The position numbers and the translations under genes were made by a program. DNA of 31,075 nucleotides from a virus. The stretch spans positions 1 to 31,075 of IMG/VR virus record IMGVR_UViG_3300036859_000033; one strand, 5' to 3'. Below, piece by piece: positions 1 to 29,289 of the stretch (the first letter of the stretch is position 1; each line of letters begins with the position of its first letter). Below the pieces are notes generated by a model. That model was not told the DNA's origin. It made no database searches and saw only the letters and a list, made by a program, of their open reading frames with translations.

Positions 1-2327
1 AGAAGATGTTCGGGGACTTCGGCGAGCGCCTGAATCTTGCCGTTGCCGCTGGTCGCGATCAGAGTGGCGTAGCCCGGTCTGCTGGTGAGCGACTTGGTCG
101 CCGTAGCAAGGGCTCGCGGAGACTGGATGCCGAAGCCCAGAAGATCGTGAGGGACTTCCGGTGTCGGTTTCTTCGGTTCTCCTATCTTCTGCGTCGTGGA
201 GTCCCCGTTCGGGCCGATGACGGAAAATTCCCCGTGGTCGATGACGATGTGGCCCTTGAATCCGGGAATCTTCAGGGCGATGCCTATGGTGAGCGAACGA
301 TCCGCCCCGCTCGGCGCAGCGCTTCCCGAAGGATGGTTGTGCATCATGTAATAGCCGTCGGCCTCGACAGCGGCCATCTGTGACTTCAACTCGGCGATGC
401 GCCCCTCGGCGCTGGTGATCTTGGGGATTCTGCCTTCCGTGACGAACGACACGGCGCCCGGCAGCCGGGAAGTCCAGCCGGTATGTCCTACAATCTGATT
501 GCCCTTCGTGAAGAATACCCGCAGCGTCTCGAAACGCGGGTCGCGAAGGATCTGCGCGGCTAGCGCGAGTTCCTGGGGACTGCTGGCGGTCTTGCCGACG
601 AGTTCTGATCCGCCCCTGGCTTGGAAATCGGCCCAGAGAGCGGAACCAAGTAGCGTGGCGCCGGCTCGACGATCCCCAGCGAATAGTCCCCGCAGGGCAG
701 CGATTCCAAGGGAACGCTGTTCGGGGGTGGTGTCGGGACGAGTTTCAACTTGGTCATAGATGAGGTCTAGCTGAACGGGATTATACGCCGGTCTGCGCTG
801 GAAAAGGACCATCCCCCGCATGGCCTTGGCTTCGGTCGCAGCGTCTTCGGCGGCTTTGGCCTTTGCTGCGTCGGCGGTGGCTTTTTCGGCCGCCGCTACT
901 TCTGACTCGGTTTCGCCTTCGAGGGATAGAGCCGGTCGAGTTTGAGCCGCGCCAGTTTCTTCGCCGCCGCCAGGACTTGGAGTGACGGGGGTTTCGCCGA
1001 AGAGGGCGTCGATTTCTGCATCTTTTGCTCCATCGGACATTGTAGCCCAATTCTCGTCCGCCTTGGATATAGCGCCTTCCGACAGGTCCAGGGCCTCTAT
1101 TTGCTCCTCGGGAGCGAGGTTTTCCAGCCCCGCCTGCTCGATCTCGGCGTTGCGCTCCGTGGCGATATGCACCAGGTAGTCCACGAACCGCTGCTCCCGA
1201 GACCCCAGTCGTTCTCCAGCAAGGGCCTTGTCGATAATTCGACGGGCGTGAGAGGCGGAAACAGGGTCGGGGCGGGCAAACCACCATCTGTGTCCCGTCC
1301 ACACGGTACGGCTTCGCCAACCGGTATCCGGGCCCTCGTTCCAGTCTTCCTTGATCATCTGGCCACCGACGTCATCCACTCCGATCTCGGACTTCATGCC
1401 GGCGACGATGGAGCGGACATCGGGATCCTGCAGCCTGGAAGGTTCCGGGTAGGCGGCTTTCAGGTCGTCCAGCGAGTATTCCCCGCTGCGGAACTTGGCC
1501 AGCACCTCGAGCCGGTCCTTCCCCTTCACCCCGGCCTTGTCGAGGATGGCCGTAACCTGTTCGTCCGGCGTTTCGACGAGCTGCGGCTCCTGCGGGCCTT
1601 TGTAGGCCACAGGCTTGTTGAGTTCGTTGGCTTGCGCTTTTCTGACGAATTGTTCGATAGGCAACTCTGTAATGGCCCCAATACGTCGCGCAGCATCATC
1701 ACTGAAAGAATCGACATAGGCTTTATGGGCCGCTTCTTCCGAAGGAAAGCCAACAAATGACTTTGTTTCGTCGAAGCTACCGTCCTCTTTTATCTGGTCG
1801 ATCACGTAGGCGTTCGGGGCTTTCAGGTCTTCGCCGATCGTGATGTCGGCCTTGTCCCCGTCAGCGCCTTCCGCAACTTGAAGGTGCCCGTAGTGTGCTG
1901 GCATGGGAGGGCTCGACCAGGAGCCGTCCCGCGCCATCCTGCGTTCACCCTTGGCGGTCTCGATGGAGACTATGCCCAAGCCTGACAACGGTTCATCAAC
2001 GAACTGGAAGTGGCCCTTGCGATTGACGCCGGCTTCGATCTGCGCTGGGGTGGGATTCTTCGCGGCGCGAACGGCCGCGGCTTCGATGTGTTCGGGGGTG
2101 GAGGCTTGGACCGGGTTTTGACGTTCTCCGGTACCGACTTCCTGAGCACTGGCAACCTGATCGTCGATGGACGCGCGTTCAGCCTTGAGGTCCTTCAGCC
2201 GCTGGCGCACCGCAGCTTTGGCTTTCTCGATGCCCGAGCCAGGTTGCTCGCGCGTGAGGGCGCGCATGATGGTGGCCTCGTGCTTCGAGAGCCCCATCTT
2301 CTTCAGGCATTTACCTAGGCTGCTCAT
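1..2327 (-). CDS. Phage polyvalent protein with InPase-like and RadC-like JAB/JAMM domains (3' end beyond the window)
   Basis: An open frame of 775 codons starts at ATG 2327 and reaches the left edge without a stop, so the C-terminus is missing. The ATG overlaps the upstream stop (ATGA). Residues about 102-242 look like the inorganic-pyrophosphatase-like domain of phage polyvalent proteins, from the KGHFQF start through a PAHYGHLQVAEGADGD stretch to NKPVAY. A charged and Ala-rich linker follows. Residues about 575-720 form a RadC-like JAB domain: FFTKGNQIVGHTGWTSRLPG, then HNHPSG at 663-668, and GHIVIDHGEFSVIGP. H663, H665 and D676 fit the zinc motif HxHx10D exactly. Polyvalent proteins are known as large multidomain proteins of phages and conjugative elements, thought to enter the cell with the DNA and act on host targets. 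Its place after the internal-protein genes fits that role. Domain calls are by motif; substrates and the missing C-terminal domains are unknown. Confidence 0.85.
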   Translation of the reverse strand, partial: MSSLGKCLKKMGLSKHEATIMRALTREQPGSGIEKAKAAVRQRLKDLKAERASIDDQVASAQEVGTGERQNPVQASTPEHIEAAAVRAAKNPTPAQIEAGVNRKGHFQFVDEPLSGLGIVSIETAKGERRMARDGSWSSPPMPAHYGHLQVAEGADGDKADITIGEDLKAPNAYVIDQIKEDGSFDETKSFVGFPSEEAAHKAYVDSFSDDAARRIGAITELPIEQFVRKAQANELNKPVAYKGPQEPQLVETPDEQVTAILDKAGVKGKDRLEVLAKFRSGEYSLDDLKAAYPEPSRLQDPDVRSIVAGMKSEIGVDDVGGQMIKEDWNEGPDTGWRSRTVWTGHRWWFARPDPVSASHARRIIDKALAGERLGSREQRFVDYLVHIATERNAEIEQAGLENLAPEEQIEALDLSEGAISKADENWATMSDGAKDAEIDALFGETPVTPSPGGGEETGAAQTRPALSLEGETESEVAAAEKATADAAKAKAAEDAATEAKAMRGMVLFQRRPAYNPVQLDLIYDQVETRPDTTPEQRSLGIAALRGLFAGDRRAGATLLGSALWADFQARGGSELVGKTASSPQELALAAQILRDPRFETLRVFFTKGNQIVGHTGWTSRLPGAVSFVTEGRIPKITSAEGRIAELKSQMAAVEADGYYMMHNHPSGSAAPSGADRSLTIGIALKIPGFKGHIVIDHGEFSVIGPNGDSTTQKIGEPKKPTPEVPHDLLGFGIQSPRALATATKSLTSRPGYATLIATSGNGKIQALAEVPEHL

Positions 2328-2545
2328 ATCACCTTCAGGAATTGACTGATGATCCGCATGATCTCACGGTCCTCGCGCTGTCGTCGGATGCGACGCTGAT
2401 CAACGTAGTCGATCTCATCGTCGGCACCGTGAGTATCTGCAGCGGCCGCCGGTCCCGCCCCCCCCAAGGAGTAGCCGATGGTCGGCAGTAACGACATGCG
2501 CCCGCCCGGCGAGAAGCCGAGCGTGACTACCGAACCCAAACTCAT
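2324..2545 (-). CDS. Small hypothetical phage protein, 73 aa
   Basis: This short gene starts at ATG 2545, four bases inside the end of the repetitive 407-residue gene (ATGA). It ends in the same kind of overlap with the polyvalent-protein gene, so it is translationally coupled on both sides. The N-terminus (residues 1-30) is Gly-rich with two similar SL-containing stretches (GSVVTLGFSPGG and LLPTIGYSLGG). The C-terminal half is highly charged (DDEIDY, then RRIRRQREDRE) and probably helical. There is no signal peptide or membrane segment. Small proteins with a GSVVTLGF-type start are familiar beside late genes of other phages, but no function is known to me. A minor virion component is possible. 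Confidence 0.7.
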   Translation of the reverse strand: MSLGSVVTLGFSPGGRMSLLPTIGYSLGGAGPAAAADTHGADDEIDYVDQRRIRRQREDREIMRIISQFLKVI

Positions 2546-3765
2546 GCGTGCGAGATGCCGGTGGGCAGCGTAGAGGTATCGACCTGAATGGCGAAGCGGG
2601 CGGCCGACGAAGTACCATCAACCTTGAAGAGGTTCTTGCTCGCCACGGTGGTCGTGGAGGTGATGGTGTGTTCGCCAAGATGAGCAATGGCTTCGTATCC
2701 GAGCTGCGCCAGGGAAGCCCCGGCCCCGCTTCCGCGATAGGATTCGGCTTGGGACGCCGTTCCGACGGCGCTCGCGATGAGCAGATGCTGCGCCGCGGTC
2801 AGGGTGTACCCGGTCTTGTCGCCACTCGTCTGCGTGATGTTGACCGTCGGTATCACCGCCCCCGTATGAGTCCCGGTGGAAAGCGTGACCGGAGGAATCC
2901 CGGAAGCCGTGCCGACCGCATTCGCCGTCAACGCAACACTGGCGGTCTGCACCACAGGAACAACAGCCCCGGAGTGTGTGCCTGACCAGAGCATGACGGT
3001 GCCGGTCCCGAACGGCGCCCAGACCGCTGTCGCCACTGCTGCCGCAGTGAGCGACCCGCCACCTGCGTTGGTGGTGATCTGCCGTACCACCGAATTCGCG
3101 GAGGAGGTGTCGAAAGTCCCCGCATCCATATTGAAAAATCTGCCAAGAGCCCCCGCAGTGAAGTCAGTGACGGTGGATGTCCGCACCGTATCGACCACCG
3201 CTACGGCGCCGACCGACGAAGCCGTTCCAACCGCCATCGCAAGGCTCGCTGTTTGGACGATGGGCACCACGGCACCGGCATGAGTTCCGGCGGCCAGTAT
3301 CACCGTCGCCGTTCCCCGCACGTTGCTGACCGAACCCAGCGTCCCAGTAGATGAAATCCCGGTCATGCCGCCGGTAACGCCGTCCTGGTTGTTCCAAGCC
3401 GTGAGTTCAATCTCGAGCGGGAGCGGCGCCATGTTCGCGGCACCACCAATCCCTATAGCGCAGGACCGGATATTTGCACCAGTAGCGAACGCGGTATCCG
3501 GAGGATCAAATCGGTAAAAGCCCTGCAGTCCGGTAGCCGTGGCGTTGACCTCTACGAAGAGACCAGTCGTGTAGGCTTGAGTGAGCGAGCCCGTCGTCAA
3601 CGTGATGGAAACTGCCGTGCTTCCCGGCCGGTAGAACCACGCCTGCAGCCCGGCTGATGTTCCAAGGAGACCGGTAAGACCGAGTCCAGTAGTAGAAGTA
3701 GATGCCTGAATGAAGACAGGGAGACTAACACTCGTAGCGCCAGCCTGGATACTGAGTTTAGCCAC
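2542..3765 (-). CDS. Repetitive beta-rich virion protein, 407 aa
   Basis: The start is GTG 3765, eight bases inside the preceding gene and behind a G-rich stretch that could act as a ribosome site. The N-terminal 125 residues form a compact beta-rich block (LSIQAGATSVSLPVF, later FYRFDPPD and NMAPLPLEIEL). The rest is Ala/Thr/Val/Gly-rich. It contains a motif repeated three times: GTHAGAVVPIVQTASL at about 160, GTHSGAVVPVVQTASV at about 262 and GTHTGAVIPTVNITQT at about 298. Low charge, absence of Cys-rich or catalytic motifs, and repeats of this kind fit an extended virion surface or fibre protein. I recognise the style from uncharacterised phage structural proteins. The function is inferred only from composition and position. 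Confidence 0.75.
   Translation of the reverse strand: MAKLSIQAGATSVSLPVFIQASTSTTGLGLTGLLGTSAGLQAWFYRPGSTAVSITLTTGSLTQAYTTGLFVEVNATATGLQGFYRFDPPDTAFATGANIRSCAIGIGGAANMAPLPLEIELTAWNNQDGVTGGMTGISSTGTLGSVSNVRGTATVILAAGTHAGAVVPIVQTASLAMAVGTASSVGAVAVVDTVRTSTVTDFTAGALGRFFNMDAGTFDTSSANSVVRQITTNAGGGSLTAAAVATAVWAPFGTGTVMLWSGTHSGAVVPVVQTASVALTANAVGTASGIPPVTLSTGTHTGAVIPTVNITQTSGDKTGYTLTAAQHLLIASAVGTASQAESYRGSGAGASLAQLGYEAIAHLGEHTITSTTTVASKNLFKVDGTSSAARFAIQVDTSTLPTGISHA
2870..3290 (-). repeat. Three degenerate copies of a GTHxGAVVPxV coding repeat
   Basis: Within the 407-residue gene, a block coding for about 16 residues (GTH-A/S/T-GAVVP-x-V-x-x-x-S) occurs at about 3288-3241, 2982-2935 and 2874-2827. 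The first two copies agree at nearly all residues and the third has diverged in its second half. The copies are separated by unequal spacers, so this is an internally duplicated domain rather than a simple tandem repeat. Confidence 0.7.
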
Positions 3766-5281: not shown

Positions 5282-5590
5282 TCACAATGCCGTCGCCCGG
5301 ACTTTTTCCAAGTCTCCGTTGGGGTGCCGGAACATATCGAATTCCCACTGGCGAACATCTTTCTTCGTCTTCAGCAGATCGAGGATCGCCGCTTGCCCAG
5401 CGACGATCTTTCCGAGCAGCGCAGTCAGGTCCGGATTCTTGTTGAGGCCGCCGGACAATTGCGAGAGCGCGTTGATGGTCCGGTTGAGTTCCGCCACCGC
5501 GTCCAGCATATCGCTGGCGTCTTCCGGCAGCAGCATCAAAGGTGGCTCACCATCCGGTTCACCGACACCGGCAGGAACTATCCGAGGCAT
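5282..5590 (-). CDS. Small hypothetical phage protein with helical core, 102 aa
   Basis: ATG 5590 lies 13 bases inside the end of the 873-residue gene; the ribosome site is poor, so coupling to that gene is likely. The N-terminal 25 residues are Pro-rich and flexible. Residues 25-75 form an amphipathic, probably coiled-coil helix (DAVAELNRTINALSQL, later KIVAGQAAILDLL). The last 25 residues contain WEFDMFRHPNGDLEKVRA, a Trp-x-Phe plus Arg plus Asn-Gly pattern that I have seen at the C-terminus of small phage proteins of unknown role. A chaperone or minor virion function is a guess. Confidence 0.68.
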   Translation of the reverse strand: MPRIVPAGVGEPDGEPPLMLLPEDASDMLDAVAELNRTINALSQLSGGLNKNPDLTALLGKIVAGQAAILDLLKTKKDVRQWEFDMFRHPNGDLEKVRATAL

Positions 5591-8199
5591 TCGAGGAGCG
5601 CCTCCATGGTTGCGATTTGATGATTCACGTCACGCAAAGCCGCATCAGCTCGTTCGGTGACAACTACTCGTTTTCCGGTAGCGTCGATCGCCCGGGTCTT
5701 CACCATGACGGCTGAGAGTATCTCCTTGGTCTTTTTCTCCGCGGCTATTTGGGACGCTCGGGAGACATCTTCACCGGGCCGTCCTTGAGTAACTGCTTCG
5801 GGTTGAGCGCCCGCTTCACCGCTTCTCTCACGAACGGGTTGTGCGTTGCCAGCGTTGCGAGCTTCAACAGGGCCGGGTACGCCGACTGTGCCTGCTTTCT
5901 CTGCTCGGCCAGATTCGACAGCCCCGCCTTCAGTGCCGCCTGTCTTTGGACCTTGTACTGCTCCTGCAACCTTGGACTTTTCACGTTTTCCCTTCAGTGG
6001 TTTCGCCTGTTTGAAGGCAAGCGCTATCGCAGTAGCTGGGGCTTCACCGCCGGCAGCCGCTTCACCGATGGCAATGTGCCGCGCCGCCCGCTCTTCCGTC
6101 TGTTGCTTGCGCGCCGCGGCTTCCTCGACTCGCTTCTGGCGCTGGGTGGTGGCCTCACCCGCCTCGAAGGCTTTCTGCTTCACCTCGGCCGTGGCCTGAA
6201 TCTCGGCTTGGCGCCTGGCCGCCCCCCGCTCCTGGATGATGTCGAAAGTTCGTCCCCTGACCGACGAAGGGGCTCCACCCATGTCCTCCACGATCTCGAG
6301 GTAGCGCTCCATGAAGCCAGCAAGAGCTTGGGGATTGCCTTGGTTCTCGTCCAGAAACTGCAGGAGCTGCTGGGACTCGTAGGAGAGATCGTGCCGGACC
6401 CCGTGGGCCAGGGCTTGGGCAGGATCCTGACCACCAGCCCGGATGACGGCGAGCTCGTCGACCGCGTTCACCAGGTCCTGCGTAATGTCCCGGTTTTCCT
6501 GTCCCTGCTTGATCGTGGCTCGCACCCGTTCCACGGTGGGCGCCACGGCCAGCATGGCATCTCCGATGGCGGATAGCTCAGGGGACTCGATGGCGTGGCG
6601 TACAGCGGCGTTCTCGCCATATACAGCCACCAGGGTGGCGTTCCTGACCCTGTCCGGGTCTACTCCTGCCAGAGAACCACCGGATTGCAGGATCTTGGCG
6701 TCCAGCCGCGCCTGCTCGAGCGGGGAGGCCCCCTCGGTTGCTGGAAGGACCGGCTCGTAGGGTATGCCTCCGGCTACAGCCTGGGCGGTCAGAGCGTCCT
6801 GGCGACTCTGTTCTGCCCCTGTAGCCCCTTCCGCGCGCCCGAGGTGTATGTCCTCCGGGGTGAAGGGAACCGCTGGTATTTGGCTCCCAGGAGGGGGTTC
6901 CATGTGGAACCCTGCGGCGACGTCGCGGCCGGCTGGGATAGGTGGTGGCAGGGCGGATGCTGGCGCCAGCTCTTCCGCCCCGGGAGCCGTGGACGGGGCT
7001 GCCACCGGTGCCGGACCTCCCGGCGTTGGTTCTGCTGTTGGTGCCGGTTGAACTCCCGGTCGCTGCACCGCCCCAGCGGCACCACCGGTTACACCGCCAC
7101 CAGCCATCCCCCCGATGGCATTGTCCGCCACCGAGATCGCGGCATCCGCAAGGCTCTTGTCGCTCCCCAGAGCCTGCTGCACGGCCTCGGACATGATTTG
7201 CTGCAGACCCTCCGTCGGGCCCTCGCGCAGCCCCCCACGAGCCATCTCGGAGAAGATTCTGGCGTAGATGGCCTTCTTCGCAGGACCGGTAAGGGCAGAC
7301 CCGAATCTCCCCATGGACCAGGAATCCAAGGCCGTGATGGGCACCGCGGCCATGGCCGTGATGCGGGCGACGTCCTGATCTGTCAACTTTCCGTCCTTGA
7401 CCGCCTGCTGAATGCCCTTGTCATCCAGGGCGTCGGAGTAGATGTCCCCGTAATTCAGAGGGTAGCCGGTCAGCACGACCCCGGCCATACCGCCAGCAAT
7501 AGCCCCCGGCGGTCCCGCTGCGGCGCCGCCGGCCGCCGCCCCGATGAGACCCGAGGCGATAGTCGGCGCCATCGAGGCCAACGCATTGCCGGTCTGGTAC
7601 GGCAAGTATTTCACGAAGAAGTCAGACAGAGCATTGCCTACGCTGTCGGTGCGGACATTGGCGATACTGCCGACGGCCGGCTGATAGCCCTTCAGGGTCT
7701 CTTCGCCCGCCTTGGCGAGGCTGGCACCTTGTTCCTTCAGCCAGTCGATTCCAAGGGCGGTACCAGCGCCCTGTGCTGCGGCCCCGAACATCTTCGGGTT
7801 GCCACCGGTCAGGCCACCGACCAAGCCCTTGGAGAACTCGCCCCGTTCCTCCGGCGCCCCGGCAAAGGGATCGCCCTCAACCGGGACGAGCCTGATCTTG
7901 GGCGCCTCCGAGCTGACCGGGAAAATCGGTCCGCGCTTGCCTCTCGTCTCGGACGCGATCTGAGCGCCGCGGGACGGGGCGGTGCGCTCCAAGTTTGCAA
8001 TTTCCTGCAGAAGCTCCGGCTCGGTCGCCTTGTTGCGGTTCGGGTCTCCCAACTGCTCCTTTAGGATGAGCAGTTTTTGCGCGTTGCTGAGTGTGCGCTT
8101 GTCGCCGACGAAACTGCCAACGCTGTTGGCTTCAGCCAGGGCACCGCTCTGACCGGCAAACGGATCGAAGTCTACCGGCCGCAGCGTGATGTCGGCCAT
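5578..8199 (-). CDS. Large internal virion / DNA-ejection protein candidate, 873 aa
   Basis: It starts at ATG 8199 in a TAATG overlap with the preceding gene. The N-terminus carries a DPFAG motif that recurs near residue 110. Residues about 200-250 are a strongly hydrophobic Ala/Gly segment (GLIGAAAGGAAAG and neighbours) that could insert in membranes. Next comes a helical region with GLREGPTEGLQQIMSEAV, typical of big phage ejection and polyvalent proteins, then a Pro/Ala linker at about 375-430. The C-terminal 250 residues are charged and helical, ending in VTERADAALRDVNHQIATME. Size, composition and position after two other such genes fit the internal proteins that short-tailed phages eject to form a DNA conduit. 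No lytic transglycosylase or polymerase motif was seen. The role is inferred. Confidence 0.75.
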   Translation of the reverse strand: MADITLRPVDFDPFAGQSGALAEANSVGSFVGDKRTLSNAQKLLILKEQLGDPNRNKATEPELLQEIANLERTAPSRGAQIASETRGKRGPIFPVSSEAPKIRLVPVEGDPFAGAPEERGEFSKGLVGGLTGGNPKMFGAAAQGAGTALGIDWLKEQGASLAKAGEETLKGYQPAVGSIANVRTDSVGNALSDFFVKYLPYQTGNALASMAPTIASGLIGAAAGGAAAGPPGAIAGGMAGVVLTGYPLNYGDIYSDALDDKGIQQAVKDGKLTDQDVARITAMAAVPITALDSWSMGRFGSALTGPAKKAIYARIFSEMARGGLREGPTEGLQQIMSEAVQQALGSDKSLADAAISVADNAIGGMAGGGVTGGAAGAVQRPGVQPAPTAEPTPGGPAPVAAPSTAPGAEELAPASALPPPIPAGRDVAAGFHMEPPPGSQIPAVPFTPEDIHLGRAEGATGAEQSRQDALTAQAVAGGIPYEPVLPATEGASPLEQARLDAKILQSGGSLAGVDPDRVRNATLVAVYGENAAVRHAIESPELSAIGDAMLAVAPTVERVRATIKQGQENRDITQDLVNAVDELAVIRAGGQDPAQALAHGVRHDLSYESQQLLQFLDENQGNPQALAGFMERYLEIVEDMGGAPSSVRGRTFDIIQERGAARRQAEIQATAEVKQKAFEAGEATTQRQKRVEEAAARKQQTEERAARHIAIGEAAAGGEAPATAIALAFKQAKPLKGKREKSKVAGAVQGPKTGGTEGGAVESGRAEKAGTVGVPGPVEARNAGNAQPVRERSGEAGAQPEAVTQGRPGEDVSRASQIAAEKKTKEILSAVMVKTRAIDATGKRVVVTERADAALRDVNHQIATMEALLECLG

Positions 8200-22281: not shown

Positions 22282-23559
22282 TTACACCAGCAGCGCCTTG
22301 CCGGCCGCGGATTGCGGGTCCGGAGCGTAACTGTCGAGAACAGCCACCCCGTAATCCGTATCCACATCGGCGAGACCGTCGTAGACCTTGAAGCGGGTCT
22401 TGGCGACACCGCCCATCATCGCGACCGATGTCTCGACCGCGTTCTGGTGGTCCACCAGCTCCTCGTGCCACGAGTAGTAGTACTCGCTCGACTTGTGCTG
22501 CCCGTAGCACTTGAGCAGCGCCTGGGCGCCCACGATGATGCACCGATCGGTGGAGACCGCCGCGGCCGATGTTGCCGCCGTGAAGGTCTTGCCGTTCGAG
22601 CCCCCGCTGTCGATGTTGACCGTGTCCCCCGCGTTGAAGCGGATGGCCAAGCGGTTCATCGGGCGGATCAGGATCCCGGCCCACATCCCAACGTCACCGT
22701 AGAACAGGGGGTGACGCATCCCGCTCGAGCGCCGTTCGTAGGCGTTCTGCAGGAAGGTCCTCCAGCTCTTCTCCCCCGTGCGCGTCTGGAGGTAGAGCCA
22801 CTGGCGGTTGGTGACGAACGCGCACCACAGCGGATCGTTCCAGGCGTAGACGTCGCCCTTGATCTTGATCGTCTGCATCGGCACGATCGAATCCTTCAAA
22901 ACCGAAGCGATCCGGTCGAAATCCGTCAGCGTCAGGATGTCGGTCGTGTCCAGCGTGGCTGGCGACGTGGCGTCGTTCGCGTAGAACTGCCGATTGCGGG
23001 TCGGTGCCAGGACGGAGTTCACCATGATGGTGGCGAAATCCGAGTCGGTCGAAAGGGGAACAACCCAGTCGGCCGTGTCCTGCGAGCCCCGGCCTCCGGC
23101 CATATGGACGAGACAGAGCTGATCTTCCAGCCGCCCCGACCAGTTGGTGAGCCCCGCCATCGCGATGCCGCGCAGGTTCCACACGGTGCGCTGCTGGGTC
23201 ATCTTGCCACCCGCGTCAGCACCACCGCGATACTGGTTGATCTGCACGTCCATCGAGGAGTAGGTCAGGCTCATGAGCTTGCCCGCGATGCGCTTGTCGC
23301 CCATCACCGGTTTGCCCTGGAGGTTGTTGAAGAGGTCCACCGAGACGGACGCACCAGCACCCTTGGAAAGGTCGGTAACGCGCACGATCGGATACTCCGC
23401 CGAGGTCTGGCCCTTCAACTTGGCCTCCGCCTCGGCTTGCTTGGGCGCCGGCCCAGTGAGCAGGTTCATGAAACCCGGCTCGATCTGGACCGCAGCGAAC
23501 AAGGCTGCACCGTAAACCTTGCGGGCCAGTGCGGACCCGTAGGGGATATTGGTAGCCAT
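22282..23559 (-). CDS. Major capsid protein, N4-gp56 / DUF4043 type, 425 aa
   Basis: ATG 23559 has a clear ribosome site (AGAAGGAAG) 17 bases after the scaffold gene. The sequence matches the N4-gp56/DUF4043 capsid family known from N4-like and 933W-like short-tailed phages. Signatures are IVRVTDLSKGAG at about 58-69, SVSVDLFNNLQGKPVMGD at about 71-88, LTYSSMDVQINQYRGGAD at about 98-115, and KMTQQRTVWNLRGIA followed by LEDQLCLVHMAGGRGSQD. The usual family length is about 400-430 residues. It builds the icosahedral shell on the scaffold encoded upstream. No N-terminal delta domain or protease is seen, so maturation by cleavage is not evident. Confidence 0.92.
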   Translation of the reverse strand: MATNIPYGSALARKVYGAALFAAVQIEPGFMNLLTGPAPKQAEAEAKLKGQTSAEYPIVRVTDLSKGAGASVSVDLFNNLQGKPVMGDKRIAGKLMSLTYSSMDVQINQYRGGADAGGKMTQQRTVWNLRGIAMAGLTNWSGRLEDQLCLVHMAGGRGSQDTADWVVPLSTDSDFATIMVNSVLAPTRNRQFYANDATSPATLDTTDILTLTDFDRIASVLKDSIVPMQTIKIKGDVYAWNDPLWCAFVTNRQWLYLQTRTGEKSWRTFLQNAYERRSSGMRHPLFYGDVGMWAGILIRPMNRLAIRFNAGDTVNIDSGGSNGKTFTAATSAAAVSTDRCIIVGAQALLKCYGQHKSSEYYYSWHEELVDHQNAVETSVAMMGGVAKTRFKVYDGLADVDTDYGVAVLDSYAPDPQSAAGKALLV

Positions 23560-23575: not shown

Positions 23576-24613
23576 TTACAAACTCGCGAGGTAGGCGTCC
23601 CGCTGCTCAGGAGTCATGTGCATGAACTTCTCGCCGAGAGACACAATGCTCATGCCCTCGACGGCCTCACGCTCGTCCTGCGCCGGCGGTGCTCCACCGG
23701 GGATATCGGATAGCGACCGAGGCGTTGTCGGCGTCTTGGCCAACTTCGCTGCGGCAGCCGCCTTCACTTTGGCTGGGTCTGGCTTGGGAGCTTCCGCAGG
23801 GGCGGGCTGAGTCCTGAGACCCATCGCGTCCTCGGTCATCTCCACCACCTTCGCGAATCGCTTCTCGAAGGGAACGTCTGCGTACAGGGGATTCTCGCGA
23901 AGCAACTTGTCAATCTTGGCGGCCTCGTTCCACAACGTCTGGTCTTGGGCTACCTGCCAGGCGGCCATCTTCGGGTTGGCGTCGATCGCGGTCTGAATTT
24001 CCGACTTGATCTCCGACTCCGTCTGTTCCACCTGAACTTCCACGCGCTCGTTCACGCCTTTGAGGGCGGTCTTGAGCCCGCTGATCTCGGTCTGCTGGGC
24101 GCGCAGCAACTTCGCCAGGGTCGGCGAATCCTGCTCCAGCGTCTTCAGCTCTTCCTCGGTCAGCGCAGCGGCATCCTGCTCGGCCCGCACCGTCTTACCG
24201 GCTTCGGCCTGCTTCAACCGCTCGATCTCGGCGGCCTGACTGACCGCCAATTCCGTGGCTTCCCGCTCACGGCGCCGTGATGCTTCGAGCACCGCATAGG
24301 GAATGACGTTCTTTCCGTCTTTCGCGAGCACGCCCTCCGGCTTCGCCTCTTTCTCAGGCTCTTCCTTGGGCGCAGCCTCCTTGGATTCGACTTTCGCCTC
24401 CTCCTTCGGGGCCTCCTTCACCTCTTTCTTCGGTGCCGGCGACGACTCCGACTTTTCGTCCATTTCCACGAAGTCTTCCACCTTGACTTGCTCCTTCCCC
24501 GATTCCAGGGCCTGGGCGATCTGCTCGTTCGCAAGCCGTTCCAGTTCCTTCGGGTCCTCGGGCATTTCGTCCGGGTGGGCGAGGTAGTACTTCAGATCCT
24601 TGGTATCAGCCAT
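23576..24613 (-). CDS. Capsid scaffolding protein, 345 aa
   Basis: ATG 24613 has GGAGAAAG about nine bases upstream. The protein is extremely rich in Glu, Lys and Ala, with no Cys. Residues about 45-95 are a disordered acidic/Lys linker (KKEVKEAPKEEAKVESKEAA). Residues about 115-215 form long coiled coils (EIERLKQAEAGK, EISGLKTALKGVNERV). Residues about 275-320 are a Pro/Ala/Lys linker, and the C-terminal helix (MSIVSLGEKFMHMTPEQRDA) may bind capsid. Position directly before the capsid gene and this composition are those of phage scaffold proteins, which guide shell assembly and then leave. No protease motif is fused to it. Confidence 0.87.
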   Translation of the reverse strand: MADTKDLKYYLAHPDEMPEDPKELERLANEQIAQALESGKEQVKVEDFVEMDEKSESSPAPKKEVKEAPKEEAKVESKEAAPKEEPEKEAKPEGVLAKDGKNVIPYAVLEASRRREREATELAVSQAAEIERLKQAEAGKTVRAEQDAAALTEEELKTLEQDSPTLAKLLRAQQTEISGLKTALKGVNERVEVQVEQTESEIKSEIQTAIDANPKMAAWQVAQDQTLWNEAAKIDKLLRENPLYADVPFEKRFAKVVEMTEDAMGLRTQPAPAEAPKPDPAKVKAAAAAKLAKTPTTPRSLSDIPGGAPPAQDEREAVEGMSIVSLGEKFMHMTPEQRDAYLASL

Positions 24614-25052: not shown

Positions 25053-25418
25053 TTACGGGATCTGTTGAGCGATCGAGGCAACCATCGGGGCCGTGGTGCC
25101 CGTGCCGCTTGTGGCGTGAGCGGTGACGTTCAGCCGCCAGAATGGCACGACCGAATCCACTTCCCACACCGCGCTCGAGTTGGTGCTGAGAATCACGCTG
25201 AACCAGTTCGTCTTGTCCAGCGAGTTCTGCACGGCGAGCGTCACGGTGGCCGAGGTCACCAGCGATATCTGCACGGCCTTCTTGCCGGGCGGAAGCGCAA
25301 CGAGACCGTATGCCCCGGTGCCGGTCTGCGTGCCGAATCCCACGTTCTCCGTATTGGTGCCGGAGGTGCCGCGGAAAAGATCGAACACCGTAGCCATCTT
25401 GCTTGGGTCCATGCTCAT
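25053..25418 (-). CDS. Small beta-sandwich virion protein candidate, 121 aa
   Basis: ATG 25418 has an AAAGGAG ribosome site eight bases upstream; ATGs at 25412 and 25397 are alternatives. This is the first gene after the terminator. The sequence is a beta sandwich: YGLVALPPGKKAVQISLV, TVTLAVQNSLDKTNWFSVIL, then VDSVVPFWRLNVTAHATSG. The 'QNS.D.tNW..v' and 'vpfwRlNVt' pair resembles small phage proteins thought to sit on the capsid or tail. With the next gene it makes a pair before the scaffold. The function is inferred. Confidence 0.72.
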   Translation of the reverse strand: MSMDPSKMATVFDLFRGTSGTNTENVGFGTQTGTGAYGLVALPPGKKAVQISLVTSATVTLAVQNSLDKTNWFSVILSTNSSAVWEVDSVVPFWRLNVTAHATSGTGTTAPMVASIAQQIP

Positions 25419-25460: not shown

Positions 25461-25496
25461 GCCTGTTTTGTCCTTCTCGCCGGACTAGCGAAATCG

Positions 25497-26972
25497 TTAC
25501 GCGACCGCCCTCAAGAGCGCCCGCGGTAAAGCCTGTTCCACCTGATCCATGACATCAGCCACCGAGATCGCGGCCTGGCACTTCGCTGCCCCGGTCTTTT
25601 CCTCACGGTGGCAAAAGGTCCAGTCGTAGTGAAGTCTGTGGCACGCCGTCTTCCCGCACTCCGGCGGGGGCTTGCCGATTGAGGCTGTGTTCGGCCAGTC
25701 GCGCGTCAGGTTCTCGTGCGAGGAATGGGAGAGCAGCACGATCTTGGCCACCTCCTTCTCGAAGGCGACGCAGTTCAAAAGACCTGTTTCCTGCCCGATC
25801 ACCAAGTCCGAGAGCTGGCACATGGTCATGGCTTGCCTGACATTCCACTTCAACCCGGCATTGATGAACCGCGGCTCCTGAGCGAATTCCTCCCACTTCA
25901 TGCCCCTGTCGTCACCCAGGGCGATCACGGTAACGTCCTCGCGCATGCGCAGGAGCTCCCGCGTGAACTCCGCGGCGTGCGGCCACATCTTGGTGACGCT
26001 CGATCCGTTGGGCACGAGGATCACCAGCCGCGGCGTGTGCATCCCCATCCGCAGGCTGTTGGCCCACACCTTCTCCTCTTCCGAGGGGTAGAACTTCTGT
26101 CGCGGTTCGTACGGTACTCGGGCTTGAAGATGATGAAACTCCAGGTAGTTGAAGTTCATCAGCTTCTCCCGGATAGGGATCGGGAAGTGATACTGGATCT
26201 TCGCGGGCGCCGGTAGCAGCGTCCCCTCCACCACCTCGACCAGCAGCCGGGAGTGCTTGTAGCGCTGCTCGATCCACTGGAAGAGCTCGCCCAACTGCCC
26301 CATCGGCACGCGGGACTCGAACTTGATCAGCTTGTCGATGTGCGGGTCGTGCCTCAAGACCTCTTCCCCTGTGTCCTGGGTGTAGAGCACGGTGTAGTAG
26401 CCCTGCTCTTTCAGGTGCGGGAAAACCGAGGATGACCACAAGGCATCCCCATGAGCCCCCAGCTTCACCACCGCGCACACCTTGTCCGGCAGCGGGGCTT
26501 TGTCCAGCACCGTGGGCAGGTCGGCCTTGCGATAGCACTGAATGAACTGCGTGCCGCCGGCGCCGGTCTTCGCCTCGCACAGCTGCCACGGCCTCAAGGC
26601 CGCCATGGCATCGATCACCATCTTGGGCGCGCACTTCTCGGTCACCGGCAGGAAAAGGAAGAGATAGCCCATCGGCTTGATGAGCCGCCACCACTCGGTG
26701 AGCACCGCGGTGAGGTCGTTGCCCTGCTCCACGAGCTCGTTCAGCAGGTAGGACGAGAACACGTAGTTCTGCGACTCCGAGGCGATCGTCGAGAGCTTCC
26801 GGGCGTCCATGATGAGGTTCGGCCCGCGGCCGGTCGTCCCGGCCTTGACGTCGATCCCAACGAACCAGTCGTGAGGTCTGGCGTCCCCGCATCCCAGATC
26901 CAGCCCATCCCCGTTCACGTACTCCAAGCACTCCCACCGCACCTGTGCGGCGAAATCAGTCTCTCCGGCCAT
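25497..26972 (-). CDS. Fused SAM methyltransferase and family-9-like glycosyltransferase, 491 aa
   Basis: ATG 26972 follows a strong ribosome site (GGGGAGGG). Residues about 20-150 are a class I methyltransferase: LDLGCGD at 24-30 (SAM motif I), VGIDV at 38-42 with the acidic D41, and LNEL and WWRLIKPMGYLFLFLP as later motifs. From about residue 165, KVCAVVKLGAHGDALWSSSV starts a two-lobed glycosyltransferase of the GT9 (LPS heptosyltransferase) style. It shows VPNGSSVTKMWPHAAEF at 320-336 and DLVIGQETGLLNCVAFE at 389-405, the nucleotide-sugar-binding region. A Cys/His cluster (CGKTACHRLHYDWTFCH, 439-455, and C465) follows. The acceptor may be host surface sugar or a virion protein; the sequence does not say. 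The gene ends at a terminator. It is an unusual presence between portal and head genes. Confidence 0.85.
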   Translation of the reverse strand: MAGETDFAAQVRWECLEYVNGDGLDLGCGDARPHDWFVGIDVKAGTTGRGPNLIMDARKLSTIASESQNYVFSSYLLNELVEQGNDLTAVLTEWWRLIKPMGYLFLFLPVTEKCAPKMVIDAMAALRPWQLCEAKTGAGGTQFIQCYRKADLPTVLDKAPLPDKVCAVVKLGAHGDALWSSSVFPHLKEQGYYTVLYTQDTGEEVLRHDPHIDKLIKFESRVPMGQLGELFQWIEQRYKHSRLLVEVVEGTLLPAPAKIQYHFPIPIREKLMNFNYLEFHHLQARVPYEPRQKFYPSEEEKVWANSLRMGMHTPRLVILVPNGSSVTKMWPHAAEFTRELLRMREDVTVIALGDDRGMKWEEFAQEPRFINAGLKWNVRQAMTMCQLSDLVIGQETGLLNCVAFEKEVAKIVLLSHSSHENLTRDWPNTASIGKPPPECGKTACHRLHYDWTFCHREEKTGAAKCQAAISVADVMDQVEQALPRALLRAVA

Positions 26973-26981
26973 GCCCTCCCC

Positions 26982-27194
26982 TCAGTTGATCGTCGGCTCG
27001 AAAAATCTCGGCGGCCCAGCCAGCTCGCACCGGGTATGCCCGCAGTTCCCGCACCTCGCGTCAGTCCAGGTCTCGCCCACCTGACGCACCAGGATCCACT
27101 GGTAGCCGCACCTCACGCACTCCACCCGGTCGTTGGTCCATGGCACGGCCTCGTCCAAGGCGTCTGCGACGTAGAACTTAACCGGGAGGAACAC
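26982..27194 (-). CDS. Small zinc-ribbon protein, 70 aa
   Basis: The start is GTG 27194, 17 bases inside the portal gene, with GGAGG about eight bases upstream. Two Cys pairs, CVRCGY at 26-29 and CGNCGH at 48-51, are spaced as in a zinc ribbon, and a further Cys is at 56. The N-terminus is hydrophobic and aromatic (FLPVKFYVADALDEAVPW). It ends ten bases before the methyltransferase-glycosyltransferase gene and is probably co-translated with it. Zinc ribbons may bind nucleic acid or a protein partner; the role here is unknown. Confidence 0.77.
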   Translation of the reverse strand: MFLPVKFYVADALDEAVPWTNDRVECVRCGYQWILVRQVGETWTDARCGNCGHTRCELAGPPRFFEPTIN

Positions 27195-29289
27195 TGGGCT
27201 GCCCTCCCTCTGGCCCCGGCTGCCCCATCGACTGATCGTGCGCGAGAAGCGTGTCCATCACGGCAAGGTCCGATTTGATCTCCACGTCGAGCCGCTTGGT
27301 TCTGGCGTCGTACTCCTTCACGTCAACCTCGCGCATCTTGATCTCGATACCGGCGTCCTTGAGCGCCTGCTCTACCGCTTTCTGGATCATCCCTTGAGCC
27401 TGCTGGGTCGTGATCTTTTCGTCACCGGACCCGATGCCCAGCGCCTGCCTGACCTGGTCGGCAACCTCCCGACGGTGCGGCATCTCGGAGGACTCCAGAA
27501 TGAACGGCACGACAAACGCCTGAACTTGAGGCGGCAGGGACTTGGTCAACTCCGACATCATCATCATCTGCTGCGCGCGGTAAGCTGGGGTGCTCGGCAC
27601 GTCTTCCAGTGCGACCTTGACCAGAGACCGCTGGACATCGTTGTCCAGCATGTCCATTCCGGCGCGCGTCACCGGCTTGTTGAGATTGATCTGCCTCTTC
27701 TTGGTCCCGAACTTCTCGTCTACGTTGACCACTGCTGGCTCGCTCCCCAGGTCTTCCCGAATCAACTCCACCAGCCGTTCCCCGACCTCCCGCCTGGCGA
27801 AGCGGAAGTTGTCGTTGATCTCGGCAAGCGTCGTCGTCCCCTGCTCGACCAAGCTGTTGATCGCAATACCCGATCCCACTCCAGGCTGCTTCTGTCCCAG
27901 CATCGCCTGATACACGCCAGCGGTCTTTTGGATGGCCGCCATCGCATCGGTCATGACCTCGAACTGCTCTTTCGAGAGTTGCATCTGGTCATCGACCTTG
28001 AAGACGCCGCCCGCATTGTCGGGTCTGCGGGTCCTCGAGAGCACGATCATGGCGTCCGGCCGGCCGATCTCGCGCCTCAACTCGTCCACGTCATCGACTT
28101 GCGTGGCATCGAGGATCACCCGCTTGGCGCTCATCAGCCACATCATCTTCGCCAACCGGGCGTTGATCTCGTCCTGCGGGCTTCTCATGGACCGGATCAA
28201 CCCGTATGGAATCTGCGTCAGGTCCTCCCGATAGCCCCAGAAGGGGACATAGGGAAAATTCTGATGCCGGTACGGCGTGGGCAGATCAGCCAGCCGGTGC
28301 GGTCCTATCCACCACGACAGCCGCATCTTCGGGTAGATAGCCGGTATCGCGTCTGTCACCCCGCCGGCTATGGCCTCGGCGTGCATCGGGTTCTCGAGGT
28401 CCACCTCGACCGTGCGACCGTCCGGGGTCCGGATGACGTGCCCCCTCACCCACACTCGATACCACACCTCGTAGAGACACAGCCGCTTGCGGGTCGAATC
28501 CCGCCAGTCCGACTCCGGGATCGTCACGTCGCGCTCGTAGAGCCAGGTCCGACCGTTCACCGCCGGGAAGTCGGTCAGCGGCGTGTCCCAGTTCGCCTTC
28601 GACCAGCCGATGAAACCGATCATGTCCTTGTGCTCGGGGAACATGAGCTCGAGGATGTCCACGTCGAGCCAGCGCCGGCGCACCAGATACCGGGCATCCT
28701 GCAGACTGGGGTCTTTGGCCCGCCAGTCCCAGAAAATCTCCCTGCGGCTCACCGCCTCAGTCCGATACGGATACCGGAAGGGATTCATCTCCCTGGACAC
28801 CTCAACCCATGCCATGCCGGTCTTCAGCATGCCGGCGTAGGCATCCGAACACGCTCTGTCAGCCCGGGTCTCGCGCTCCGCTTCGTGCAACTTGGCGGAG
28901 AGCGCTTCAGCAACGTCTTGATGCTTCTCGTTGTCGGCCTGCACCCGCCAATCCGACCGGGTCTTGGCCTCCATGCCCAAGGCCACGTCGATCGTGGGCT
29001 TGATGAGGTTCCTGATGAGGGGCGCCAGGCCCAGCCGCTGCATGTCGTCTAGCGTCTGGTGATCGAGCTGGTTGCCATCGTAGTACTCGGCGTCGAGATC
29101 AGCTTCCCGGCGCCACATCGGCTGCAGCCTGATCTCGTAGAGGAACTTGTCCAGGCGGTCCACCGACATGCCACCGCCACCGATGTCCACCGAGCTATTG
29201 ATGGCGCCACGCACCGCCTGCTGCATCAACTCAGGCCGCTGCAACTCCAGCGGATCGACGTGATCGATCGGATACTCTGCCAAGCTCAC
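27178..29289 (-). CDS. Portal protein, P22-like, 703 aa
   Basis: It starts at GTG 29289, overlapping the large-terminase stop (GTGA). Length and layout match P22/933W-type portals of about 700-725 residues. The front has LDKFLYEIRLQPMWRREADL, YYDGNQLD and an NLIKPTIDVALGMEAKTRSD stretch. The stem and wing region carries SGIAINSLVEQGTTTLAEIN at about 473-492 followed by NFRFARREVGERLVEL. The C-terminus (about 620-690) is a charged helix with EIKMREVDVKEYDARTKRL, likely a barrel or tail-side helix. It forms the dodecameric ring for DNA entry, nucleates head assembly and binds the terminase. Adjacent terminase and adaptor genes support this. Confidence 0.9.
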   Translation of the reverse strand: MSLAEYPIDHVDPLELQRPELMQQAVRGAINSSVDIGGGGMSVDRLDKFLYEIRLQPMWRREADLDAEYYDGNQLDHQTLDDMQRLGLAPLIRNLIKPTIDVALGMEAKTRSDWRVQADNEKHQDVAEALSAKLHEAERETRADRACSDAYAGMLKTGMAWVEVSREMNPFRYPYRTEAVSRREIFWDWRAKDPSLQDARYLVRRRWLDVDILELMFPEHKDMIGFIGWSKANWDTPLTDFPAVNGRTWLYERDVTIPESDWRDSTRKRLCLYEVWYRVWVRGHVIRTPDGRTVEVDLENPMHAEAIAGGVTDAIPAIYPKMRLSWWIGPHRLADLPTPYRHQNFPYVPFWGYREDLTQIPYGLIRSMRSPQDEINARLAKMMWLMSAKRVILDATQVDDVDELRREIGRPDAMIVLSRTRRPDNAGGVFKVDDQMQLSKEQFEVMTDAMAAIQKTAGVYQAMLGQKQPGVGSGIAINSLVEQGTTTLAEINDNFRFARREVGERLVELIREDLGSEPAVVNVDEKFGTKKRQINLNKPVTRAGMDMLDNDVQRSLVKVALEDVPSTPAYRAQQMMMMSELTKSLPPQVQAFVVPFILESSEMPHRREVADQVRQALGIGSGDEKITTQQAQGMIQKAVEQALKDAGIEIKMREVDVKEYDARTKRLDVEIKSDLAVMDTLLAHDQSMGQPGPEGGQPSVPPG

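Follow-up and report, generated by a model that had tools for sequence, protein, structure and literature searches.

A fused methyltransferase–GT9 glycosyltransferase encoded among phage head genes, a candidate enzyme for virion decoration in phages of Gram-negative bacteria

The closest precedent for the gene described here is found in the Cluster O mycobacteriophage Corndog, in which genes gp35–gp38, encoding an O-methyltransferase and glycosyltransferases, lie between those for the portal and the capsid protease. It has been proposed that this block puts methyl and glycan groups on the capsid (PMC4351075), and capsid or virion glycosylation has since been reported for mycobacteriophages, as cited in PMC12363180 and PMC12619734. 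TibC, a bacterial autotransporter heptosyltransferase, uses ADP-D,D-heptose to glycosylate protein; its GD motif contains the catalytic-base Asp, and four cysteines bind a ferric ion that is required for assembly and activity (PMC4358343). HldE and glycosyltransferase genes are also carried by environmental phages, and in PMC7029224 and PMC11671562 they are read as auxiliary genes of the LPS type.

The protein P0001 has features in common with each of these systems. As in Corndog, a methyltransferase and a glycosyltransferase are encoded among portal and capsid genes. The Corndog enzymes are the products of separate genes in a phage of a mycobacterial host, whereas P0001 is one fused chain and belongs to phages of Gram-negative bacteria; moreover, the Corndog enzymes are described as glycosyltransferases and an N-acetylglucosaminyltransferase, not as GT9 enzymes, whilst some phages of the P0001 type carry heptose-nucleotide genes. 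With the LPS enzymes WaaF and WaaC (PF01075), P0001 shares its fold, an alignment over most of the domain and the GD and GSxxxK motifs, but the identity is only ~11–16%, and P0001 differs in its fused methyltransferase, in an ETG in place of D(S/T)G and in its location in a phage head operon. TibC has a similar GT9-like catalytic domain and a four-Cys iron finger, to which four cysteines of P0001 correspond in approximate place though not in spacing. TibC is a dodecamer with an N-terminal beta-barrel; in P0001 a methyltransferase occupies the N-terminus and there is no beta-barrel. HldE-type genes are common to the phages with LPS-type auxiliary genes and to relatives of P0001, but the available portions of PMC7029224 and PMC11671562 link none of them to a head-operon GT9–methyltransferase fusion.

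P0001 is encoded in an IMG/VR record of 31,075 bases, the whole of which was analysed and is referred to here as the window; open reading frames were called by a simple script, and this contig and those compared with it are fragments. A preliminary description had presented the gene as a single 491-residue chain carrying both domains, which is correct, LDLGCGD included. The frame it gave is indeed open, but on the minus strand, the plus-strand frame being interrupted by stops. The order of genes, all on the minus strand, is TerL, portal, P0001, two small proteins, scaffold-like protein and major capsid protein (Table 1). Since portal, scaffold-like and major capsid genes flank P0001, with phrog_156 on one side and phrog_479 and phrog_334 on the other, its placement between portal and head genes was also right. 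The phrog_479 match is taken to be a scaffold from its place, its function being listed as unknown in PHROGs. The 121-residue protein next downstream has no PHROG match, and is a possible decoration protein and candidate acceptor. Elsewhere in the window (5578–8199, minus strand), an 873-residue protein gives a partial match to a DarB-like antirestriction protein (phrog_10089, E 6.8e-10).

Table 1. Features of the window in and around the P0001 gene
Feature	Position	Strand	Basis
Methyltransferase–GT9 fusion P0001, 491 aa, CDS	25497..26972	-	Frame reading and homologues
Class I SAM-dependent methyltransferase domain, residues 1–160	26493..26972	-	Pfam and fold
SAM-binding motif I LDLGCGD, residues 24–30	26883..26903	-	Conservation in 63 members
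GT9-fold heptosyltransferase-like domain, residues 161–491	25500..26492	-	Fold and profile
Four-Cys cluster C439, C444-H445, C454, C465	25578..25658	-	Conservation and GT9 alignment
Shine-Dalgarno-like GAGGGGAGGG ahead of the P0001 start codon	26974..26983	-	Sequence reading
Short conserved RNA element that may fold as an H-type pseudoknot, 3' of the P0001 stop codon and 5' of the hairpin	25469..25493	-	
Terminator-like hairpin AGGGCC-GCAA-GGCCCT and T-run, 3' of P0001	25445..25460	-	Scan and relatives
Portal protein, upstream neighbour	27178..29289	-	phrog_156, E 1.7e-157
Small Ser/Thr-rich protein (121 aa, 24.8% S+T), next downstream	25053..25418	-	Role inferred
Scaffold-like protein	23576..24613	-	phrog_479, E 9e-39
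Major capsid protein	22282..23559	-	phrog_334, E 1.9e-99

The gene does have a ribosome site of its own, as had been suggested, with GAGGGGAGGGC-ATG immediately 5' of the coding sequence. The proposed terminator fares less simply: the hairpin and T-run are present, and a GC hairpin and T-run recur at the matching position in most close relatives, but the scan of the window returned such structures at the frequency expected by chance (4 found against 4.3 expected from shuffles). The idea of an isolated cargo gene is not supported. The gap between portal and P0001 is filled, up to the ribosome site, by a short Zn-ribbon-like frame alone, the scan found no promoter-like site, and none of the close relatives examined lacks the gene. 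The term 'cargo' is misleading, because the gene is conserved within its lineage and has its place in the head-connector region of backbones from three unrelated kinds of phage. The Zn-ribbon-like frame itself (~26982–27180, minus strand) contains two CxxC pairs (VECVRCGYQW...ARCGNCGHTRC) and lacks an ATG start.

Between the stop codon of P0001 and the hairpin lies a small noncoding element, TTTCGC-n-GACC-A-GCG-ATA-GGTC-AACAGG, which recurs at the matching place in eight relatives (L003, L004, L006, L007, L008, L012, L017 and L020). In a pseudoknot fit, 98.4% of cells are paired, with a covariation of 0.198 compared with 0.034 for shuffled alignments, and one pair covaries over AU, UA, CG and GC. 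A search of Rfam with the element gave nothing above threshold. In two relatives a tRNA-Met (CAT) gene lies directly 3' of the fusion gene (L003 6895–6969 and L018 8514–8588); the window has no such gene.

Seven relatives identified by a search with the portal gene have the fusion at the corresponding position (55–63% identity); their capsid proteins, where available, are 87–96% identical to that of the window. In six further portal relatives (39–53% identity), no fusion was found in the stretches examined. All close relatives carry the fusion in the same slot, and an origin of the fusion as a chimera or assembly artefact is rejected because it recurs there. In L017 and L018 the scaffold gene is followed by two capsid-matching frames (89% and about 80% identity) with a 267-residue frame between them, and the capsid gene of these relatives is interrupted or duplicated.

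More distant relatives were collected by searching viral sequence with conserved stretches of the protein. This matched 333 stretches, at least 306 of which encode relatives; the best 80 of the 306 were kept, which biases the sample toward full-length fusions, and an alignment of 63 members was built from these, selected for coverage. Head or connector genes are present in 71 of 76 non-redundant loci. Nine loci have the phrog_156/334 genes of the window (type A), 34 have phrog_1216/1357 (type B) and 11 have phrog_21/617 (type C), whilst a further 17 show connector-side genes or the small protein p131 only. The distance from the last codon of the fusion to the next connector gene is at most 7 nt in 26 loci, overlaps included. 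The gene tree has three deep clades that match the three capsid/portal types, which are unrelated to each other; the gene thus appears to have entered three lineages long ago, each time in the head-to-connector region. Comparison by hhalign of the small neighbours p121 and p134 with p131 of the other backbones revealed no homology. Other genes found in the slot in relatives encode sugar-modification enzymes, namely TylF and FkbM methyltransferases and a GT2 glycosyltransferase. In L240 (5481–7377), methyltransferase and glycosyltransferase are two frames separated by ~200 bases, a spacer that resembles a homing-endonuclease remnant.

The fusion was not found in 50,697 phage records; by tblastn against INPHARED, P0001 itself had no match and two other members matched methyltransferase domains only, as was also the case for plasmids. 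A scan of bacterial genome contigs with a narrow alignment returned nothing, and a wider alignment gave fourteen contigs that encode a full or nearly full fusion, including those of the isolates Paraburkholderia sp. C35 and P. rhynchosiae WSM 3937. Where a genome contig names the host, it is a Gram-negative bacterium, in many cases from the Burkholderiales. Of five genomes tested, four have an integrase gene on the contig of the fusion at a distance of ~27–38 kb, which is about 37 kb for the two Paraburkholderia isolates, and we infer that the fusions in cultured Paraburkholderia sit in prophages.

The N-terminal domain was correctly described as a SAM-binding methyltransferase. P0001 scores just above the cut-off for Pfam Methyltransf_11 (21.5 bits against 21.2), a family matched by all 63 members (E <= 0.01), and its predicted fold is that of class I methyltransferases over residues 1–150, with a Z score of 15.9 to 3dli over residues 1–149 (AF2 model, VIA-align). 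Motif I is accompanied by the expected acidic residue after beta2 (D41), and D25, G27, D41, S73 and S74 are invariant in the 63 members, with G29 at 98%. A loop, typically HKDFYPNIGQPGANPDHKHDFLPED, is present in 51 of the 63 and is a trait of the phage fusion family rather than of Methyltransf_11. The ten members of the clade that includes the window, together with two others, lack this loop (YPNIGxxGANPDHKHDF), and in the window clade SSHLLEHI is replaced by SSYLLNEL. On the gene tree, presence of the loop requires two changes, and the window clade may have lost it or may never have had it. In class I methyltransferases this region often faces the acceptor. Thus, the methyltransferase of the window may have another methyl acceptor, or may be inactive.

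The latter possibility can be extended to a reading in which, in the window clade, the glycosyltransferase half alone is active and the methyltransferase half survives as a remnant that binds SAM and has a structural or regulatory part. The missing loop and the altered SSHLLEHI segment are consistent with this, as is the existence of a relative, L242, with a glycosyltransferase only in the same slot. Motif I and D41 are nevertheless kept throughout the clade, apart from a single G29A, and the methyltransferase fold is predicted with high confidence; we regard a remnant as quite improbable. In near pairs of relatives, dN/dS is ~0.07–0.30 and similar for the two halves, so both domains are under purifying selection in the relatives; these pairs all come from outside the window clade, which contributed none within the limits on identity and dS.

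For the C-terminal half, structure prediction and profile comparison with GT9 agree, and the heptosyltransferase-like assignment made earlier is upheld. A single-sequence AF2 model of P0001 (pLDDT 36.7) was discarded in favour of one built with the 63-member alignment (pLDDT 94.4, pTM 0.91). In VIA-align comparisons of residues 163–485, GT9 enzymes head the list of PDB matches: 3tov (Z 23.5, rmsd 3.7 over 280 residues), WaaF 1psw (Z 22.0, rmsd 4.1 over 275), TibC 4rap (Z 19.1) and WaaC 2h1h (Z 18.9). The domain thus has a GT-B fold that is nearest to GT9. In a single hhalign comparison, the family aligned with bacterial GT9 sequences over 306 columns (E 2.3e-17), and with E. coli WaaF alone at E 1.2e-6. 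PF01075 is matched by 24 of the 63 members (E <= 0.01; best 8.4e-8). P0001 on its own gives no PF01075 match, and Pfam returns nothing for its C-terminal half; NCBIfam gives a weak match to lipopolysaccharide heptosyltransferase I.

Residues G172, G175, D176, E249, G323, S324, K328, G353, R379 and E395 of this domain are invariant in the 63 members, as are the NLT and W of NLTRDW, C444, H445, C454 and C465. In alignment with WaaF and other GT9 enzymes, D176 falls on the catalytic Asp of the GD motif and G323, S324 and K328 on the GS-xxx-K motif. We infer that D176 would be equivalent to the catalytic-base Asp of the TibC GD motif, and the four-residue spacing of S324 and K328 is that of T226 and K230 in TibC. 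The D(S/T)G donor-binding motif of GT9 reads E395-T-G, a conservative change in which the Glu is invariant.

The Cys/His cluster near the C-terminus had been singled out as an extra feature that might bind metal. It is real and invariant in the family, but it is not extra: in the profile alignment, the four cysteines fall on or beside the CxPC...C...C cluster of ordinary Burkholderiales GT9 enzymes, and a comparable cluster is found in 7 of 17 members of a bacterial GT9 panel. Its standing as a new feature was accordingly rejected. The cluster is probably a metal site.

In some relatives of the window there are also genes that could supply a heptose donor. A PfkB kinase is encoded by 6 of 15 carrier contigs, among them L003 (63.9 kb) and L012 (62.7 kb), which at about 63 kb are the two longest close relatives, and the genes around these kinases form a cluster. 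Typed by the best-scoring named family, and in every case below the curated equivalog cut-offs, three contigs match NCBIfam rfaE_dom_I (E 2e-93, 5e-92 and 9e-56) and rfaE_dom_II (4e-16, 2e-30 and 6e-19), two match gmhA (5e-31 and 2e-28) and one matches GmhB (7.5e-39). Of 24 viral contigs with the fusion, 6 have both the HldE kinase and the adenylyltransferase (rfaE_dom_II) domains, small counts without a backbone-matched control, and the kinase is also encoded by the contig of L063, a seventh. HldE kinases are present in 5 of 50,697 phage records (E <= 1e-20), one of which is a bacterial contig, a base rate that is not matched for habitat; at least 566 stretches in IMG/VR encode such kinases. 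Reciprocally, among 47 viral contigs with an HldE kinase, the glycosyltransferase was found in 4 at E < 1e-120, and in two of these it is part of the full single-frame fusion. L153 and L159, meant as controls, carry the fusion, which leaves only L010 and L013 without a detected one, too few for this purpose. Against a heptose reading, there is no HldE gene in the 31 kb window record, and none was found in the sequence of most fusion-bearing contigs, which are fragments.

No HldD epimerase could be clearly typed, an epimerase of L144 being closer to other sugar epimerase families; this would leave the donor as ADP-D,D-heptose, the donor of TibC. In the sugar clusters of L144 and L145, acetolactate-synthase-like TPP enzymes, radical SAM/SPASM proteins, an SDR and DJ-1/PfpI are encoded beside the HldE and GmhA types, and carrier sugar clusters also contain GT2. 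Because of the TPP, radical SAM/SPASM, SDR and GT2 enzymes, the end product may be a heptose with further modification. One radical SAM protein of the L144 cluster (425–2713, minus strand) is split by an intein-like domain (Pfam Intein_splicing, E 2e-12).

The main rival to modification of the virion is the addition of heptose, and of a methyl group, to host LPS or another envelope glycan, which would keep released virions or competitors from binding and so lead to receptor masking or superinfection exclusion. WaaF and WaaC, among the nearest relatives of known structure, are LPS-core enzymes, phage rfaE and glycosyltransferase genes have been interpreted as LPS-related in PMC7029224 and PMC11671562, and relatives of P0001 are found in contigs of LPS-bearing bacteria. 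The position of the gene argues otherwise, as a slot in the head operon, often abutting a connector gene, implies expression at the end of the infection cycle and probably little in lysogens. The GtrA flippase of serotype-conversion (gtrABC) systems was detected in none of the 15 carrier contigs, which may be partial, P0001 has no hydrophobic segment (maximum 19-residue KD 1.15), and TibC, a relative by fold, glycosylates a protein (PMC4358343). The earlier suggestion that host LPS is altered to block other phages is thus the less likely of its two proposals, the other being glycosylation and methylation of capsid or tail proteins, given the late structural operon, the few nucleotides to the connector gene and the lack of the flippase, and we judge it unlikely while still deserving attention. 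Lineages with little else in common have the gene beside head genes, which speaks for a virion target rather than LPS.

It might also be supposed that P0001 acts on the phage DNA, producing glycosylated or hypermodified bases that protect against restriction. Viral DNA glycosyltransferases are known, as cited in PMC12619734, and packaging genes lie near P0001, but a thymidylate synthase/hydroxymethylase family protein is encoded by just 1 of the 15 contigs, the slot is in the head operon and not among replication genes, and the enzyme combines a GT9 fold with a methyltransferase that resembles small-molecule methyltransferases. A role in DNA modification therefore seems very improbable.

Modification of a virion protein is the reading that we prefer. 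P0001 would be a bifunctional soluble enzyme whose synthesis coincides with that of the head proteins, late in infection. The GT9 domain would move a sugar, most likely D-glycero-D-manno-heptose from ADP-heptose, onto a head, decoration or neck protein from the same operon, and its methyltransferase domain, using SAM, would methylate the added sugar or a nearby residue. A protein acceptor is supported by the existence of a solved protein heptosyltransferase of this fold, TibC, and heptose as the sugar by the heptose-nucleotide genes of related phages. In a good fraction of these the donor would be at least partly phage-made, by enzymes of the GmhA, HldE and GmhB types; elsewhere it would be drawn from the pool of the Gram-negative host. 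We give about an even chance to this picture, in which a heptosyl- and methyltransferase made late acts on a protein of the virion and often draws on ADP-heptose from phage enzymes.

With the fusion found among the head genes of many little-studied viruses, some of which have sugar-making genes, its carriers probably attach a sugar of the heptose type to their own virions. More tentatively, and with somewhat less than even confidence, it can be proposed that widespread phages of Gram-negative bacteria run a protein-heptosylation pathway of their own, in which phage enzymes of the GmhA, HldE and GmhB types would make ADP-D,D-heptose and the head-operon GT9–methyltransferase would add methylated heptose to capsid or neck proteins in three unrelated capsid lineages. 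In the open-access literature searched, most of the documented cases of sugar-decorated phage particles are mycobacteriophages. Heptosylation of the virion in phages of Gram-negative hosts can be tested directly, since the conserved fusion lies at the head-connector junction of three backbones, co-occurs with heptose-nucleotide genes and is found in apparent prophages of Paraburkholderia that can be cultured. If true, it would provide a new reading for some of the phage HldE genes that are now filed as LPS-related auxiliary genes.
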